Source: Halorussus litoreus (GTDB lineage: Archaea > Halobacteriota > Halobacteria > Halobacteriales > Haladaptataceae). From it: a stretch of DNA of 41,905 nt. Under the pieces are notes generated by a model. The model saw only the letters and a program-made list of their open reading frames with translations, ran no database searches and had not been told where the DNA came from. The stretch is taken from the NCBI RefSeq assembly GCF_003382685.1, contig NZ_QLVG01000052.1:1-41905 (forward strand), read 5' to 3'. Positions 1 to 41,905 of the stretch are shown piece after piece (position 1 is the first letter of the stretch; the number at the start of each line of letters is the position of its first letter). A program made the position numbers and the translations under genes.

Positions 1-20
1 GGCGCAGCGGCCGCTGCGCC
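1..20. repeat. Perfect palindrome cut by the left window edge
   Basis: The first 20 bases are a perfect palindrome centred between bases 10 and 11, and it may extend beyond the window. It lies in the coding frame of the surface protein. It may belong to the set of 46-58 bp palindromes listed elsewhere, but its full length cannot be seen. Confidence 0.6.
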
Positions 21-4523: not shown

Positions 4524-5786
4524 TCAGTCGTCGGCCGCCGCCGGCGACATCTCCACCATCGAGGCGTCGCCGTACAGCGTCCGGGCCGCGAGCACGCAGG
4601 CGACCGCGATGAGCGCGACGCAGGCCAGATACTCGACAGTGAAGCCGAACGCGTTGGCGGCCGGGAGCGCGACCAGTGGGCCGAGCGTCGAACCAAGGTC
4701 GCCGAACACGTTGTACGCGCCGCCGAGCTTCCCCACGTCGTCCGCGGGGCTGATGTCGCCCAGATACGCCAGCAGCGGCGGGCTCGTGCCGCCGACGCCG
4801 ATGCCGATGAGCGCGACGCCGACGAGCGTGGATTCGAGCGTCTGGACCAGCGCGAGGACGGCGAACCCCGACGCGAACACCGCGAGTCCGGGGATGGTGA
4901 GCGCGGCCCGGTTCGTGAGCGTGTCGGAGTAGCGCCCGACCAGCAGGGTGGTCAGGCTCGACCCGAGCACGCTGACGGCCATCACGAGTCCGCTCGCGCC
5001 GACGCCCGAGAGCGAGCCGACGGCGATGCCGTACTCCTCGGCGTACAGCACCACGGTCGACAGCAGGATGCCCGCGAACAGGAATCGGACGACGAAGTTG
5101 ATCGCGCCGACGGTGAAGATGCGCGCGTCTGCGCCGACCAGCGCTGGGAGGTCTCGGAGGCTGCTGGTGGTCCCCACGTCGGCGTTCACGTCCGGGAGCA
5201 CCAGCGCGGCCACGACCGCCGCGAGCAGGCCTGCGAATCCAGCCACGAGGAACGCCTCGCTGTAGCCGAACGCGTCGGTGACGAGGCCGCCGACCACCAG
5301 CCCCGCGGGAAAGCCGAGGCTCTGCCCGCCGCGCATGTAGCCGACCCAGCGACCGCGATTCTCGGGCGTCGTGATGTGGGTGATGGTGCTGAACGCCCCG
5401 ACGAAGACGAACGCCGAGCCGATGCCCCAGCACGCCCGCGAGAGCAGGAAGACGGTCGCGCTGTCGAGCGGAATCGGGCCGGGGTCGAGACCGAGCACGT
5501 AGCCGAACGGGACCAGCCCCTGGACCACGAACCCGGCGATCATCGGCCGGCGGGTTCCGATAGTGTCCAGAATCTGGCCCGCGGGGGTGTTCATCAGCAG
5601 TCGGGTGAACCGGTTCACCGAGAGGATAGCACCGACGAACAACGGCGAGATGCCCAGCAGTGGGCCGAGCGTCGGGAGCGTCGGGAACGCCACGCCGCCG
5701 CCGACCCCGCCGAGGAACACGCCGGCGACGAGGCTCCCGACGACGTACTTGACGCTCGGGTCCTCGCCGCCGAACCACCGACTCAT
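4524..5786 (-). CDS. MFS transporter (drug-efflux type)
   Basis: This 420-residue integral membrane protein (from ATG 5786, MSRWFGGEDPSVKYVVGS) has about 12 hydrophobic segments. Typical MFS features are NRFTRLLMNTPAGQILDTIG after TM2 and the loop motif GRWVGYMRGG between TM4 and TM5. Its ATG overlaps the TGA of the upstream TetR gene (ATGA), so the two are one operon. The pairing with a TetR repressor suggests an inducible exporter of small toxic molecules; the substrate is unknown. The longer frame reaching 5912 is an N-terminal over-extension through the TetR gene. Confidence 0.88.
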   Translation of the reverse strand: MSRWFGGEDPSVKYVVGSLVAGVFLGGVGGGVAFPTLPTLGPLLGISPLFVGAILSVNRFTRLLMNTPAGQILDTIGTRRPMIAGFVVQGLVPFGYVLGLDPGPIPLDSATVFLLSRACWGIGSAFVFVGAFSTITHITTPENRGRWVGYMRGGQSLGFPAGLVVGGLVTDAFGYSEAFLVAGFAGLLAAVVAALVLPDVNADVGTTSSLRDLPALVGADARIFTVGAINFVVRFLFAGILLSTVVLYAEEYGIAVGSLSGVGASGLVMAVSVLGSSLTTLLVGRYSDTLTNRAALTIPGLAVFASGFAVLALVQTLESTLVGVALIGIGVGGTSPPLLAYLGDISPADDVGKLGGAYNVFGDLGSTLGPLVALPAANAFGFTVEYLACVALIAVACVLAARTLYGDASMVEMSPAAADD

Positions 5787-9971: not shown

Positions 9972-10478
9972 GTGCCAGAGGACGCGACGCTCGACGCGTT
10001 CGCCTCGCAGGACGCGGCCGAGAGCGACGAGGAAGGCGAGCCCGTGGAGGACGCCGAAACTGACGACGAAAGCGCCGAGCTTGATGGGGACGCCGAACCT
10101 AGCGAGAACGGCGAGTTCGAAGACGGCTCGGTCGAGGCCGAGGACGAGCCCGAGGCTGAGGACGAATCGGCCACGGTTGGCGACGAACCAGCCGAAATCG
10201 AGGCCGACGGCGAAGCCCTCGATACCCCCGACGAAACCGAACCCACCGACGAGACGGTCGCGGCCTCCGAATCCGCGGATTCGGAGGCCGCGACCGTCGG
10301 AGAGTCGACCGACGAGTCCACGGTCGATATCTCCGAGGTCGAACCCGCGCGCTCGACGTACGATTGGACTCCAGACGGTGGCGAGTGCGCCGATTGCGGC
10401 GCGTCGGCCGAGCGGCGCTGGCGGGCGGACGGACAGAAGGCGGGTGAACTGGTCTGTGAGGACTGCAAGGAGTGGTGA
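9972..10478 (+). CDS. Acidic linker protein with C-terminal zinc finger (DUF7573-like)
   Basis: This is 168 residues from GTG 9972 (MPEDATLDAFASQDAAES). About 110 residues are a very acidic disordered Glu/Asp/Ala/Ser linker. The conserved C-terminus is TYDWTPDGGECADCGASAER and then LVCEDCKEW, with four Cys in two CxxC pairs. This layout, a short N-terminal TLDxF motif, an acidic linker and an ADCG...CEDCKEW finger, is a haloarchaeal small zinc-finger family; I give the DUF number from memory. A 46-bp perfect palindrome forms codons 94-109 of the linker. The molecular role is unknown. Confidence 0.75.
   Translation: MPEDATLDAFASQDAAESDEEGEPVEDAETDDESAELDGDAEPSENGEFEDGSVEAEDEPEAEDESATVGDEPAEIEADGEALDTPDETEPTDETVAASESADSEAATVGESTDESTVDISEVEPARSTYDWTPDGGECADCGASAERRWRADGQKAGELVCEDCKEW
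10253..10298. repeat. 46-bp perfect palindrome in coding sequence
   Basis: Two 23-nt arms meet with no spacer, the centre reading GAATCCGCGGATTC. It encodes ETVAASESADSEAATV in the disordered linker of the zinc-finger protein. Every one of the 23 base pairs matches. Confidence 0.97.
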
Positions 10479-13233: not shown

Positions 13234-15587
13234 GCGGGGACGCATCTACCGGCGAACCGTCCGCAAGCGAATCGGCGAGTCCGCGGTCGCCGGCGACCGC
13301 GGACTCGCCGATTCGCGAGGGACTCCGCGACGGGCTCCGGATCGGCGACGGCGCCGCGTCGTACCACCGGCTCGCGGTCGGCTCGGTCGCGGTGCTGATG
13401 GCGACCTCCGTGAGCGTGCTCTACCACGTCACCGACATCGTAGGCGGCACGGGGACCCTGACCGCGCTCGTCGCGGGGACGCTGGTCGTCGGGACGCTGC
13501 TCGCGCGCCGGCTCTCGCCGCGCCACGCTGCGCTCGTCGCTGGCGGACTGCTCGCCGTCGGACTGGCGGGCTACTACATGTCGGTGCCGAGCGCCTACCT
13601 CGTCGCGGTGTCGTTCGGGAAGGTGCTCGCGGACAACGTGGCGCTGCTGACCGGCCTGTCGGTGCTCCGGATGACCGAGGTCGGCGCGTGGGCGCTCGGA
13701 GTCGCCCCGGCGCTGGTGTTCGCGCCGTGGTATCTCGTCCTCCGGCGGCGGTACGCGCTGGCGGTCGCCGCGGGCGGGGCCGCGCTTGTCTTCTTCGTGC
13801 TGAGCGGCGACGCCGGCAGCTTCGTCACGCTGGTCGGCACGCTCGCGGCCACCGCGGCGCTCGGGTTCGGCACGCTGGCTCGGCGGGGCGGCACCCCCGA
13901 GCAGGTCGACGCCATCGCGGTCGTGCTGGTGACGATGGTGGTGCTCTCGTCGACGGTCAGCGTCGTCCCCGGCGGGGCGACCAGCCCCATCCTGCCGGGT
14001 GGGGGCTCGGGCACGCCCACGGTCGAGGACGCGTTCGTGACGAACCAAGACCGACTGTCGGTCGTCGGGTCGATCCGGCTCTCGCCGAAGGTTCGGTTCA
14101 CCGTCGAGGCCGACCAGTCGGCGTACTGGCGCGTCGGCGCGTACGACCGCTACGACGGCGACGGCTGGATACGGACGGGCGACCCGCGCGACTACGGAGT
14201 CCAGCAACCGCCGCCGGGACCGAGTTTGGAGATCGAACAGACCGTCTCCGTGGAGGCCGAGCGGATGGACGCGATGCCCGCCGCGTGGCGACCGCTCAGG
14301 CTCACCGACGGCGACCGGGACAACGTCAGGGTCGGGGCCGGCGGCTCGTTCGATCCCGTGGGGTCGCTCCGCGAGGGCGAGACCTACTCGGTCGTGAGCA
14401 GAGCTCCGGCTCCGGAGAGACGCCAGCTACAGACCGCGGGCACCGACTACCCCGCGCGCGTCGAGGACCGGTACCTCCAGCTGCCGGGCAGTTCGGCCGA
14501 CCGCATCGCGGACCGCACCGACGAGATTACCGCCGACGCGTCCACCCCATACGAGGAGGCAGTGGCCATCGAGCGCTGGCTGGAGAGCAACAAGCGCTAC
14601 TCGCTCGACGTCGACCGCCCGGACGGCAACATCGCCGAGAGCTTCATTTTCGACATGGAGCAGGGCTACTGCACCTACTACGCCACGTCGATGGTCACGA
14701 TGCTGCGCTCGCAGGGCGTCCCCGCCCGGTTCGTGGTCGGGTACACGCCGGGCCAGCAGGTCGCCGAGGACGAGTGGGTCGTCCGCGGGCTCGACTCCCA
14801 CGCCTGGGTCGAGGCGTACTTCCCCGGCGTCGGCTGGGTGCAGTTCGACCCCACGCCCGGTGGGCCGCGCGAGTCGGCCGAGAACGAACAGGTCGAGCAA
14901 GCCCGCGAGGGCAACGTCTCGAACGTCGACACCGACGAGAGCGAGGACGGAACGTGGACGCCCTCGACCACCGAGATGCCGGACATCGGAGAAGCCAACG
15001 ACCTGACGACCCAGTCCGGCGAGAACGGGACGACCGATTCGAGCGTGAACGCCACGCTCGCCGGCGGTCGAGGCCAACTCGAGCCCGTAGGAGCCGGCCT
15101 CGACGACGGCAACGTGGAGCCGGTCACCTCCGCCCGGACCGACGCGACGACTGCGTCGAAGGCCGACAGCGACGACGGCGGGCTTCCCCTTGGACTGCCG
15201 TCGCGCGAGCAGACGGTGCTGGGCGCGATCGCGCTCGTCGGCCTGCTCGCGGCCGCCCGGCGGACGGGAGCGCTCGGTCGCGCTCAGCGGGCGGTCTGGC
15301 TCCGGTGGCAGCCCCGCCGCGACCCCGAGGCCGACGTGGAGCGGGCGTTCGCCCGGCTGGAGGGGCTGCTTGCCGACGAACACCGCGAACGGGACCCCGG
15401 CGAGACGCCCCGCCAGTACCTCTCGGCGATGGCGATCCGTGGCGACCTCGACGACCGGGCCGAGCGCGTCGGACGGATCTACGAGCGGGTCCGCTACGCC
15501 GGGGAGGTCGAGGACGAGCTCGCCGAGGAAGCGGTGTCGCTGGTGGACGAACTCGTCGCCGAACGCCGAGGCCTCGGCGGCCGATAA
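13230..15587 (+). CDS. TgpA-like transglutaminase-domain membrane protein
   Basis: This is 785 residues. A disordered head (residues 1-45) contains the 50-bp palindrome. About six membrane helices (residues ~45-250) follow, then an external region, then the transglutaminase core with QGYCTYYATSMVTMLRSQGV (Cys481), LDSHAWVEAYFPGVGW (His524) and VQFDPTPGG (Asp540), a complete Cys-His-Asp triad. A linker, a membrane helix (QTVLGAIALVGLLAAAR) and a C-terminal DUF4129-like domain end the protein. It is the third gene of the MoxR-DUF58-TgpA operon. The likely role is extracytoplasmic protein cross-linking or proteolysis; the substrate is unknown. Confidence 0.9.
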   Translation: MSGDASTGEPSASESASPRSPATADSPIREGLRDGLRIGDGAASYHRLAVGSVAVLMATSVSVLYHVTDIVGGTGTLTALVAGTLVVGTLLARRLSPRHAALVAGGLLAVGLAGYYMSVPSAYLVAVSFGKVLADNVALLTGLSVLRMTEVGAWALGVAPALVFAPWYLVLRRRYALAVAAGGAALVFFVLSGDAGSFVTLVGTLAATAALGFGTLARRGGTPEQVDAIAVVLVTMVVLSSTVSVVPGGATSPILPGGGSGTPTVEDAFVTNQDRLSVVGSIRLSPKVRFTVEADQSAYWRVGAYDRYDGDGWIRTGDPRDYGVQQPPPGPSLEIEQTVSVEAERMDAMPAAWRPLRLTDGDRDNVRVGAGGSFDPVGSLREGETYSVVSRAPAPERRQLQTAGTDYPARVEDRYLQLPGSSADRIADRTDEITADASTPYEEAVAIERWLESNKRYSLDVDRPDGNIAESFIFDMEQGYCTYYATSMVTMLRSQGVPARFVVGYTPGQQVAEDEWVVRGLDSHAWVEAYFPGVGWVQFDPTPGGPRESAENEQVEQAREGNVSNVDTDESEDGTWTPSTTEMPDIGEANDLTTQSGENGTTDSSVNATLAGGRGQLEPVGAGLDDGNVEPVTSARTDATTASKADSDDGGLPLGLPSREQTVLGAIALVGLLAAARRTGALGRAQRAVWLRWQPRRDPEADVERAFARLEGLLADEHRERDPGETPRQYLSAMAIRGDLDDRAERVGRIYERVRYAGEVEDELAEEAVSLVDELVAERRGLGGR
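13267..13316. repeat. 50-bp perfect palindrome in the transglutaminase gene
   Basis: Two 25-nt arms meet with no spacer, centred on GGTCGCC/GGCGACC at 13291.5. It encodes residues ~13-29 (SASPRSPATADSPIR) of the disordered N-terminus. Being 37 nt downstream of the ATGA junction, it could also affect translation of the third operon gene. Confidence 0.97.
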
Positions 15588-15987: not shown

Positions 15988-16377
15988 CTAAAACGGCGCT
16001 TCGGGGCCATCGGAGTCGGTATCCTCCTCGCTGCTTTCTCCGGAACTCTCCGCCTCACCGCCGCTTTCGACCCCGTACTCCCACGCCTCCAGCCCGCCGG
16101 CCATGCTCTCGATTCGGGCGTCGTCCGGGAGTCCCTCGTAGGAGGCCACGAGCCGAGCGGCCTGCACGCTGGCCTGCCCGTGCGGGCAGACGGTGACGAC
16201 CCGGTCCGCGCCGTCGAGGCGGTCGATCTCGTCGGCGAGCGCGTGGAACGGGATGTTCTCGCTGTCGGGGATGTGGCCCCGCTCGAACTCCGCTTCCGGT
16301 CGGATGTCTACGACGCGCACGTCCGCGCCGGCGTCGAGGAGTTTGCTGACTTCTTCCGGGGAGATTTCGGCGTCCAT
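15988..16377 (-). CDS. Rhodanese-like domain protein
   Basis: This is 129 residues with a single rhodanese domain: MDAEISPEEVSKLLDAGADV, then VVDIRPEAEFERGHIPDSEN, the active-site loop VVTVCPHGQAS with the catalytic Cys, and SMAGGLEAWEYG. The C-terminal 25 residues are a disordered Ser/Glu tail. It probably handles persulfide sulfur transfer. On the minus strand a TTATTC box at about 16402-16407 lies 28 bp before the ATG, and the 50-bp palindrome sits about 45 bp upstream of the start. Confidence 0.9.
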   Translation of the reverse strand: MDAEISPEEVSKLLDAGADVRVVDIRPEAEFERGHIPDSENIPFHALADEIDRLDGADRVVTVCPHGQASVQAARLVASYEGLPDDARIESMAGGLEAWEYGVESGGEAESSGESSEEDTDSDGPEAPF

Positions 16378-16422: not shown

Positions 16423-16472
16423 GTGACGCGCCCCGGCGGCCGAGACGCGTCTCGGCCGCCGGGGCGCGTCAC
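16423..16472. repeat. 50-bp perfect palindrome between rhodanese and winged-helix genes
   Basis: Two 25-nt arms meet with no spacer, centred on GAGACGCGTCTC (16447.5). It is intergenic, upstream of the rhodanese TATA region and downstream of the winged-helix gene, so a terminator or operator role is possible. It matches the in-gene palindromes in size. Confidence 0.97.
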
Positions 16473-25188: not shown

Positions 25189-25246
25189 AATCCGCCCGCG
25201 CCCGCCGACCGACTGCCAGCAGTCGGTCGGTCGCCGCGGGCGGATT
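25189..25246. repeat. 58-bp quasi-palindrome in an intergenic region
   Basis: Two 27-nt arms separated by CCAG match at 23 of 27 positions, the four mismatches being consecutive. It lies in the 206-bp gap between the small membrane protein and the SRPBCC gene, so it may act as a terminator. It resembles the perfect palindromes but has begun to diverge. Confidence 0.9.
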
Positions 25247-31924: not shown

Positions 31925-32329
31925 TCACGACCCGCGAATCCGGTTCCAGACCGCGACCACGCCCACCAGTAGGCCGAACAGCGCGAGCAGCGTCCCGATG
32001 ACGAGAATCGAGAGGTTCGGATACGAGATGCGCACGAGGCCGATCAGGAACACCACCGCGAGCAGTCCCGCGAGGGCGTAGGTGCCCCAGCGGCTCCCTT
32101 CGTCGTCGGCCGGCGGCTCGCCGAACCCCTCGGGCACGCTCGGCGAGGCGGTCGCGTCCGCGTTCTCGTACGCGGACGCGACCGCCTCGCCGCCGGACTG
32201 GAGCCTGGACGTCTCAGTGTCCTCGGACGCGGACGACGCGGCGTCTTCGGACGCGGCTGCGTCCTCGGTGGCGGACGCGTCTGTCCCCTCTGACGTGGGT
32301 GTGTCCGATTCCCGGTCGTTCGACGACAC
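31925..32329 (-). CDS. Acidic-headed two-TM membrane protein
   Basis: This is 134 residues. The first ~75 are a disordered Ser/Glu/Asp/Ala region that includes the palindrome-encoded stretch. The C-terminal part has two helices, WGTYALAGLLAVVFLIGLVR and LVIGTLLALFGLLVGVVAVW. No family is recognised. The membrane part looks conserved in type; the head is low complexity. Confidence 0.65.
   Translation of the reverse strand: MSSNDRESDTPTSEGTDASATEDAAASEDAASSASEDTETSRLQSGGEAVASAYENADATASPSVPEGFGEPPADDEGSRWGTYALAGLLAVVFLIGLVRISYPNLSILVIGTLLALFGLLVGVVAVWNRIRGS
32141..32192. repeat. 52-bp inverted repeat (23-nt arms, 6-nt loop) in coding sequence
   Basis: Arms 32141-32163 and 32170-32192 are perfectly complementary with loop TCTCGT. 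It encodes roughly residues 46-63 (GGEAVASAYENADATASPS) of the two-TM protein's disordered head. Confidence 0.97.
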
Positions 32330-37276: not shown

Positions 37277-37296
37277 CGGGACGAAACCGGCCCATG
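37277..37296 (+). promoter_or_regulatory. Shared 20-nt leader ending in a start codon, copy 2
   Basis: This is identical to 31168-31187. TTCAAGTA (37263-37270) is centred about 28 bp before ATG 37294. Two unrelated genes therefore share the whole TATA-to-start segment. Confidence 0.8.
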
Positions 37297-38424
37297 ACTC
37301 ACGTCCTCGGTCGCCGCGACTCCGATGGCTCTACTGCTGATGATTCGAACCCCGACGACTCCCCGCCCGCACCCGCCGCACGCTTCGGCCACTACCGGGC
37401 CCGCGACGGGAGTTCCGGAGCCGAGGTCCGGATCGACTTCGACCGGCCCCACGTCGGTCTGATCGTGGGCAAGCGCGGCTACGGCAAGTCGTACACACTC
37501 GGCGTGCTCGCCGAGGAACTCGCCCGTGCGCCAGGAGTCGCGCCGGTGGTCGCGGACCCGATGGGTATCTTCGGGTCGCTGGGCGACCTCGGCGCAACCG
37601 TGGTCGAGCGCCCGTGCGTGACCGCCGCCGCGCTCGCGCCGCAGGCGTGGTGCGACCTGCTCGGACTGGCGGCCGACTCCCCGGCGGGCGCGCTGGTGTG
37701 GCAGGCCGCGGCCGCCCGCTCGACGCTCGCCGGAATGCGGGCGTTCGTCGCGGACGCCGACACGAAGGCCGACCGGACTACCCGCCGAGCGGCCGACAAC
37801 CACCTCGCGCTCGCCGAGTCGTGGGACGCCTTCGCGCCGGAGGGCCTCACTGCCGAGGACCTGCTCGACTCGCCGTCCGCCGTCGGGACCAGCGCGGGCA
37901 CGGTGCTGGACCTCTCGGGATTCGACCCCGCGCCCGCGAACGCCCTCGTCCGCGCGGTCGCGGGGAGCCTCTACGACCACTGCGTGCGCGAGCGCCCCGA
38001 CTGGCTGCCTTGGCTGCTGGTCGACGAGGCCCACGCCTTCTTCGCGGGCGACGCTGCGCGACCGCGAGCCGGCTCGCGGTCGCGCAGCGTCGCCGCTCCC
38101 GCGCTCCGGACCGCGGTGACGCGGGGCCGCCAGCCGGGGCTGAGCCTCGTCGCGGCGACCCAGCGCCCGAGCGCGCTCCCGCCGGTCGCAATCTCGCAGG
38201 CCGACCTGTTGGCGGCCCACCGGCTGACCTCGCGGGCCGACCTCGACGCGCTCGCCGCGGCCCGGCCCACCTACCTCGGCGCGTCGTTCGAGGAGCGCCT
38301 ACCCGACGCGCGGGGCGAGGTCCTGCTGGTCGACGACGCCACCGAGAGCGTCCACGCGGTCCGGGTCCGCGAGCGCGAGACGCCCCACGGCGGCGCGAGT
38401 CCGCGCGCTTCGGCGCGCGAGTGA
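37294..38424 (+). CDS. HerA-like (DUF87-type) ATPase
   Basis: This is 376 residues from ATG 37294. After a disordered head, ARFGHYRARDG and VGLIVGKRGYGKSYTLGVLA give Walker A (residues 59-66). VVADPMGIFGSLGDLG follows, with Walker B WLLVDEAHAF (Asp244-Glu245), then TRGRQPGLSLVAATQRPSAL and ISQADLLAAHRLTS. These are HerA/FtsK-superfamily features. HerA normally pairs with NurA, which is not in this window. An exact 16-codon palindrome (GDAARPRAGSRSRSVA, residues 252-267) sits just after Walker B, where I expect relatives to run straight into APALRT. Confidence 0.82.
   Translation: MTHVLGRRDSDGSTADDSNPDDSPPAPAARFGHYRARDGSSGAEVRIDFDRPHVGLIVGKRGYGKSYTLGVLAEELARAPGVAPVVADPMGIFGSLGDLGATVVERPCVTAAALAPQAWCDLLGLAADSPAGALVWQAAAARSTLAGMRAFVADADTKADRTTRRAADNHLALAESWDAFAPEGLTAEDLLDSPSAVGTSAGTVLDLSGFDPAPANALVRAVAGSLYDHCVRERPDWLPWLLVDEAHAFFAGDAARPRAGSRSRSVAAPALRTAVTRGRQPGLSLVAATQRPSALPPVAISQADLLAAHRLTSRADLDALAAARPTYLGASFEERLPDARGEVLLVDDATESVHAVRVRERETPHGGASPRASARE
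38047..38094. repeat. 48-bp perfect palindrome next to Walker B of the HerA-like gene
   Basis: Two 24-nt arms have no spacer, centred on GAGCCGGCTC at 38070.5. It starts and ends on codon boundaries and encodes 16 residues, half of them Arg/Ser/Ala, in the loop after the Walker B helix start. Confidence 0.97.
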
Positions 38425-41599: not shown

Positions 41600-41905
41600 A
41601 TGCAGGCCCAGTCGCTCCTCGGCAGCGCACGGGTGATCGACCGGCGGCTGGAGGACCTCCTGTCGGCCAACCGGTTCGCCGAGGCCCCGGAGCCGTGGAC
41701 CCACGCCGCGGCCATCCGCGACACGCTCGGCGACGTGGCCGAACAGCTCCGCGCGAGCGTCCCGCTCCCGGCCGCGAGCGACGACCCGGACGACCGCGAC
41801 GAGCAATTCGTCGGCCTGCTCGACGCCCTCGCCGCCGATTTCGACCCGAGGGTCGAGCAGGTCGCGGCGGTCGCGCCCGCGTCGTCGCCGCGCGGCGACG
41901 ACGCG
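41600..41905 (+). CDS. Unrecognised protein (operon gene 3), 3' end missing
   Basis: 102 codons are open from ATG 41600 to the window end: MQAQSLLGSARVIDRRLEDL, EAPEPWTHAAAIRDTLGDVA, EQLRASVPLP, then FVGLLDALAADFDPRVEQVA. It looks helical in the visible part, with a Pro/Ala/Ser linker at the end. The ATG is one base after the stop of gene 2 (TAGCATG). No family can be named from this fragment. Confidence 0.65.
   Translation, partial: MQAQSLLGSARVIDRRLEDLLSANRFAEAPEPWTHAAAIRDTLGDVAEQLRASVPLPAASDDPDDRDEQFVGLLDALAADFDPRVEQVAAVAPASSPRGDDA
41878..41905. repeat. Perfect palindrome cut by the right window edge
   Basis: At least 28 bp are perfectly palindromic, centred at 41891.5 and reaching the last base, inside operon gene 3 (PASSPRGDDA). 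Its full length lies outside the window. Confidence 0.7.

Follow-up and report, generated by a model that had tools for sequence, protein, structure and literature searches.

Rickettsia palindromic elements form a sequence family whose members are inserted as units. Their repeat identity is lost over time (PMC6649704). In Nematomorpha, mitochondrial genes contain many perfect coding inverted repeats, for which template switching has been proposed (PMC6649704). Template-switch mutations at quasi-palindromes have also been reported in E. coli (PMC7202029) and yeast (PMC8604942), where they homogenise the arms.

Here we compare these systems with a set of perfect palindromes in the chromosome of Halorussus litoreus and some of its congeners. 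The nematomorph mitochondrial genes are the closest described case: there too perfect repeats lie in coding genes, imperfect ones are not in excess, and repeats are gained and lost between species (PMC6649704). However, the nematomorph repeats are mitochondrial, reach 284 bp and occupy conserved protein segments, whereas those of Halorussus are carried by an archaeal chromosome, measure about 30-57 bp, lie in many cases in linkers, loops or intergenic DNA, and reach high numbers only in certain species of a single genus. With the quasi-palindromes of E. coli and yeast they share clustered substitutions and perfect inverted repeats in coding DNA arising from arm homogenisation. The E. coli (PMC7202029) and yeast (PMC8604942) cases are described as mutational hotspots or, for yeast, as a set of 39 genes; in Halorussus the extrapolated number is hundreds per genome and the length is characteristic. 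As in Rickettsia palindromic elements, palindromic DNA is translated in frame within proteins, but the Halorussus palindromes have no common sequence, are not inserted as units and still have perfect arms. Looking in the open-licence literature for palindromes in Halorussus or other haloarchaea, and for template switching in archaea, we found no account of this phenomenon, and the main text of a survey that covered inverted repeats across 118,019 genomes contains no word beginning with "halo".

The palindrome in the HerA-like ATPase gene

The window, that is, the whole stretch of 41,905 nucleotides that was analysed, is one entire contig of the 75-contig, 3.84-Mb genome of H. litoreus (G000). 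Its features are collected in Table 1. The HerA-like gene encodes an ATPase of the HerA type: the motifs GKRGYGKS (Walker A) and LLVDEAH (Walker B) are conserved, and the top Foldseek match of the protein is the HerA of S. solfataricus (4d2i, E 6.5e-15). The two arms of its palindrome, GGCGACGCTGCGCGACCGCGAGCC and GGCTCGCGGTCGCGCAGCGTCGCC, are 24 bp each, 100% complementary and not separated by any spacer. In a fifth-order Markov version of the window, used as a control for chance, the longest arm is 13. The assembly confirms the initial annotation in that the palindrome fills whole codons and lies eight residues past the Walker B Glu. This codon-exact placement looks like a coincidence, since the lengths modulo 3 of the eight in-gene palindromes in H. 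litoreus include 0, 1 and 2.

Table 1. Positions of the HerA-like gene and of perfect palindromes in the window
Feature	Position	Strand	Context	Evidence
HerA-like ATPase gene	37294..38424	+	start codon ATG at 37294; orthologues in all congeners searched	Pfam DUF87 E 1.2e-5; HerA fold (PDB search)
48-bp perfect palindrome	38047..38094		codons 252-267, disordered loop after Walker B	sequence, Markov control, pLDDT
Left arm of HerA palindrome	38047..38070		probably native; GDAA like H. halobius loop	alignments, weaker than in the MutS case
Right arm of HerA palindrome	38071..38094		probably rewritten	alignments
Palindrome, arm 23, no spacer	10253..10298		acidic linker near C-terminus of coding frame	
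Palindrome, arm 25, no spacer	13267..13316		near N-terminus of poorly conserved coding frame	
Palindrome, arm 25, no spacer	16423..16472		upstream of minus-strand gene starting near 16375; similarity to G016 ends here	
Palindrome, arm 23, spacer 6	32141..32192	-	in Ser/Asp/Glu-rich linker	
Palindrome cut by contig start, arm 10	1..20			
Palindrome cut by contig end, arm 14	41878..41905			

Homologues had been expected to run from the HAFF segment straight into an AAPALRT-like segment. This holds for 35 of the 40 aligned HerA-like homologues, in which a short HAFF-xG-x-A junction leads on to x-ALRT, and the window protein therefore has extra residues after HAFF. It does not hold for the following sequences, which have a longer loop: the window protein itself, its nearest relative H. 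halobius (G001), G016, G013, and G031, which belongs to another family. The loop measures 59 nt in the window. In H. halobius it is shorter (GDAAERGSRNV, 36 nt), with a longest perfect arm of 4. In G016, G013 and G031 it measures 62, 65 and 80 nt, and the longest perfect arm is 8, 4 and 4, respectively. Loops equally long or longer thus exist there without a palindrome, and their length is independent of it. A clean insertion of a 16-codon unit, as first proposed, does not agree with a loop that varies in length, has a shorter form in H. halobius and has long non-palindromic forms elsewhere. Equally long non-palindromic sequence in distant homologues, which the initial annotation had itself named as the observation that would count against insertion, is found in the congeners G016 and G013 and in G031, the decisive case being the one distant genome, G031.

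In the congeners that have the loop it ends in R-N-V-A, encoded by CGG AAC GTC GCG, whereas the window has R-S-V-A, encoded by CGC AGC GTC GCC. Every one of these changes pairs with the left arm. This suggests that the right arm of the HerA palindrome was rewritten, in a loop too variable for the alignment to decide which arm is native. As to surface exposure of the loop, a point raised at the outset, AlphaFold2 gives a pLDDT below 50 at residues 252-259 of the window protein, which predicts disorder and is consistent with an exposed and flexible loop.

Palindromes in the genome and in the genus

The HerA palindrome is no one-off insertion but one member of a genome-wide class of unrelated perfect palindromes. 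The window alone holds five palindromes with arms of 23-25 bp, the HerA one included, and their sequences are unrelated. The 441 kb of H. litoreus that were sampled contain 27 perfect palindromes whose arms are at least 15 long, among them 16 with arms of at least 22; extrapolation from this sample gives about 235 palindromes (arms at least 15) per genome. All palindrome censuses given here rest on genome samples of 40-441 kb. An imperfect palindrome at 25189-25246 of the window, with 28-bp arms and 89% complementarity, may belong to the class in a decayed or incomplete form. At 2782-2856 of the window, what appears to be a coding frame contains a G run followed by a C run; in the alignment with G016 this part falls on a linker. 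This tract looks like a dark-cycle artefact of two-colour sequencing. Similar poly-G and poly-C tracts, as well as N gaps, are present elsewhere in the H. litoreus assembly and in that of H. amylolyticus (G010).

At an arm length of 22, H. litoreus has 18 perfect palindromes versus 4 with one mismatch and 5 with two, the combination of perfect identity and no imperfect excess that characterises the nematomorph repeats. This shortage of imperfect copies was measured in H. litoreus, other species having been tested less sharply. Pairing drops to background outside the palindrome edges, which are thus abrupt. Arm lengths peak at 22-26 in this genome and at 15-19, or more broadly 15-21, in G005; the maximum total length in this genome, 53 bp, may be a sequencing limit. 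The GC content of the arms is 0.80-0.835, compared with 0.66-0.68 for whole genomes. Palindromes are depleted inside genes. Those in coding DNA keep the reading frame in 8 of 8 cases in H. litoreus and 7 of 7 in H. amylolyticus, against about one third expected if length were free. The picture is less clear in G005, where 8 palindromes keep the frame and 6 do not, and in G012, where the numbers are 8 and 2; at least one out-of-frame case in these two genomes sits just beyond the end of a gene, HerA.

No element sequence common to the arms was found; at most short 11-mers are common, with the exception of one small intergenic family (L040 14133-14166, L045 7976-8013 and L059 3805-3838). This family, with the conserved ends GCGGGATAT...GCGCAG..CTGCGC..., is common to H. 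litoreus, H. halobius and G005 and represents a separate, sequence-conserved type of palindrome.

The density of palindromes with arms of at least 15 varies widely among Halorussus species, each represented by a single genome: 28 per 100 kb in G005, 17 in H. amylolyticus, 14 in G012 and 6 in H. litoreus. G002 has 7 per 100 kb, with arms of 15-16 and only 60 kb sampled. About 2 per 100 kb are found in H. halobius, G009 and H. ruber (G015), and none in nine other Halorussus species sampled for 60-101 kb each, H. marinus (101 kb) being one of them. The outgroups have one such palindrome in about 380 kb. With arms of at least 18, H. halobius has 0 in 320 kb versus 21 in 441 kb of H. litoreus. On a two-protein tree, several nodes of which are weakly or moderately supported, the palindrome-rich species are scattered: G012 pairs with G017, which has no palindromes, G005 and H. 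amylolyticus group with G008, a sister that also has none, and H. litoreus pairs with H. halobius. A single origin of palindrome richness was rejected on account of this scatter, though several of the nodes are weak. Apparently, the rates of palindrome formation differ sharply between sister species.

Origin of the palindromes

Genes that can be aligned across species indicate how the palindromes arise. In MutS (contig C9 of H. litoreus, 5279-5325; L041), a palindrome with an arm of 22 lies in a segment in which 15 congeners align gap-free. In the congeners 8-13 of the 22 positions pair, while all 22 pair in H. litoreus; judged from these living relatives, the ancestral inverted repeat was imperfect. 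Compared with H. halobius, the left arm, which bears the conserved DREAA, differs at 3 of 22 positions and the right arm at 8 of 22. In the PCMT palindrome of G012, the arm conserved in G003, G014 and H. ruber is the right one; the left one is rewritten, with no indel. A separate palindrome lies nearby in PCMT of G005, again with no indel across most relatives. The different PCMT palindromes of two species lie about 10 residues apart (L146 13999-14037, L156 4254-4292), and this position may be a hotspot. The HerA-like gene of H. amylolyticus carries a palindrome of its own in a different loop: the left arm, GACCTGCTCG, is native, and the 12-18 nt by which the gene exceeds most congeners form the reverse complement of it. 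At a gene edge in G005, the right arm is common to G006 and H. ruber and the left arm is missing from both. One arm is therefore native and the other a derived reverse complement in MutS, in PCMT of G012, in HerA of H. amylolyticus and at the G005 gene edge. Among the sites aligned, none was found to be palindromic in two species.

A native arm, a rewritten arm, a quasi-palindromic start and little or no change in length fit template switching and not an inserted element. We consider the HerA palindrome of the window to be, rather probably, the product of a template switch at a short quasi-palindrome, judging from the sequence comparisons above. Starting from a short, partly complementary stretch, the nascent strand would take either its own strand or the sister one as template, write the reverse complement of some 24 nt from the adjacent arm and then switch back, leaving a perfect palindrome. 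For HerA, we infer both this polymerase event and its direction; the event would have hit a disordered loop, where new residues and slight in-frame length changes are tolerated. A species-specific change in replication or repair may raise the rate of such events in a few Halorussus species. The following observations count against template switching: arm lengths peak at 22-26, where plain random switching predicts a steady fall; the GC content of the arms exceeds what copying an average arm gives; Mre11 and Rad50 occur in all species, and DinB and RNase HII do not set rich species apart from poor ones; the frame is kept less clearly in G005 and G012; and the HerA loop varies too much to show which of its arms is native.

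The initial annotation likened the HerA palindrome to the Rickettsia palindromic elements, and a mobile or programmed element of that kind, or one resembling a MITE, would account for a window loop exceeding most homologues in length and for the missing arm at some sites in relatives. The comparison breaks down on both sequence and length. The arms have no consensus in common and, being unrelated, do not show the conserved terminal inverted repeats of MITEs. The best-aligned genes show replacement at unchanged length (MutS and PCMT are free of indels), the HerA loop is partly present in relatives, and the frame is kept although lengths modulo 3 are mixed. An inserted element is thus very improbable, the length-preserving cases having already largely refuted it. 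Chance pairing, which a GC content of 0.66-0.68 does increase, has already been refuted: no arm of at least 15 appears in the Markov controls, and there are none in congeners of similar GC.

Template switching could also supply merely the raw material, with hairpins or cruciforms of a species-specific length then kept by selection for structure (serving, for example, a nucleoid protein or the stability or termination of transcripts). The near absence of imperfect copies, the peaked arm length, the high GC of the arms and the depletion inside genes agree with such selection. It is nevertheless an unlikely explanation given that no aligned site is palindromic in two species, that the sister species H. 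halobius has none with arms of at least 18 in 320 kb, and that several palindromes, unrelated in sequence, occupy loops of coding regions and conserved segments. An artefact of the assembly or the library is also conceivable: in a draft built from short reads, difficult GC-rich sites might give fold-back reads that imitate palindromes. The assembly has 75 contigs, poly-G and poly-C tracts and N gaps, one of which adjoins a palindrome; moreover, of 22 contig ends examined, 6 are part of a palindrome that extends to the end, compared with 0.2% of positions chosen at random, so that the assembly tends to break at palindromes. Real hairpins would cause the same breaks, however, and the same class is present in G005 and G012, assemblies of 4 and 5 contigs without poly-G tracts. 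Exact preservation of length in MutS, and of the reading frame in all 8 coding cases of H. litoreus, also makes an artefact quite improbable.

Beyond single events, it is conceivable, and we suggest it tentatively, that in some Halorussus species an active, species-specific process keeps writing and repairing perfect palindromes of fixed length throughout the chromosome, because a factor of replication or repair has been gained or lost. The palindromes would then be self-perpetuating without any element sequence. If the template-switch explanation holds, the genus would offer a natural comparative system, with an extrapolated thousand perfect palindromes in one species and roughly none in a sister species, in which to find the factor that controls template switching and to see how cells tolerate hairpins. 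Template switching would also represent a mutational route that can rewrite many adjacent codons at once and supply new sequence for protein loops.

Several repair genes were compared between palindrome-rich and palindrome-poor species. Loss of Mre11 was rejected as the cause, Mre11 being above the cut-off in 18 of 18 genomes, and so was loss of Rad50, a full-length Rad50-like gene being present near Mre11 in the palindrome-rich genomes; the Rad50 model was the Sulfolobus one, and no genome scored above its cut-off. The ExoVII large subunit occurs sporadically and does not track palindrome count. DinB, missing among the congeners searched only in the incomplete G011, and RNase HII do not split rich from poor species. 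Only in G014, where 77 kb contained no palindrome, does the Rad50-like gene appear to be split into two frames (G014:C3:28438-31070). A small contig of G005, the most palindrome-rich species, holds an additional Rad50-like gene and an additional Mre11-like match (G005:C3:967-5321).
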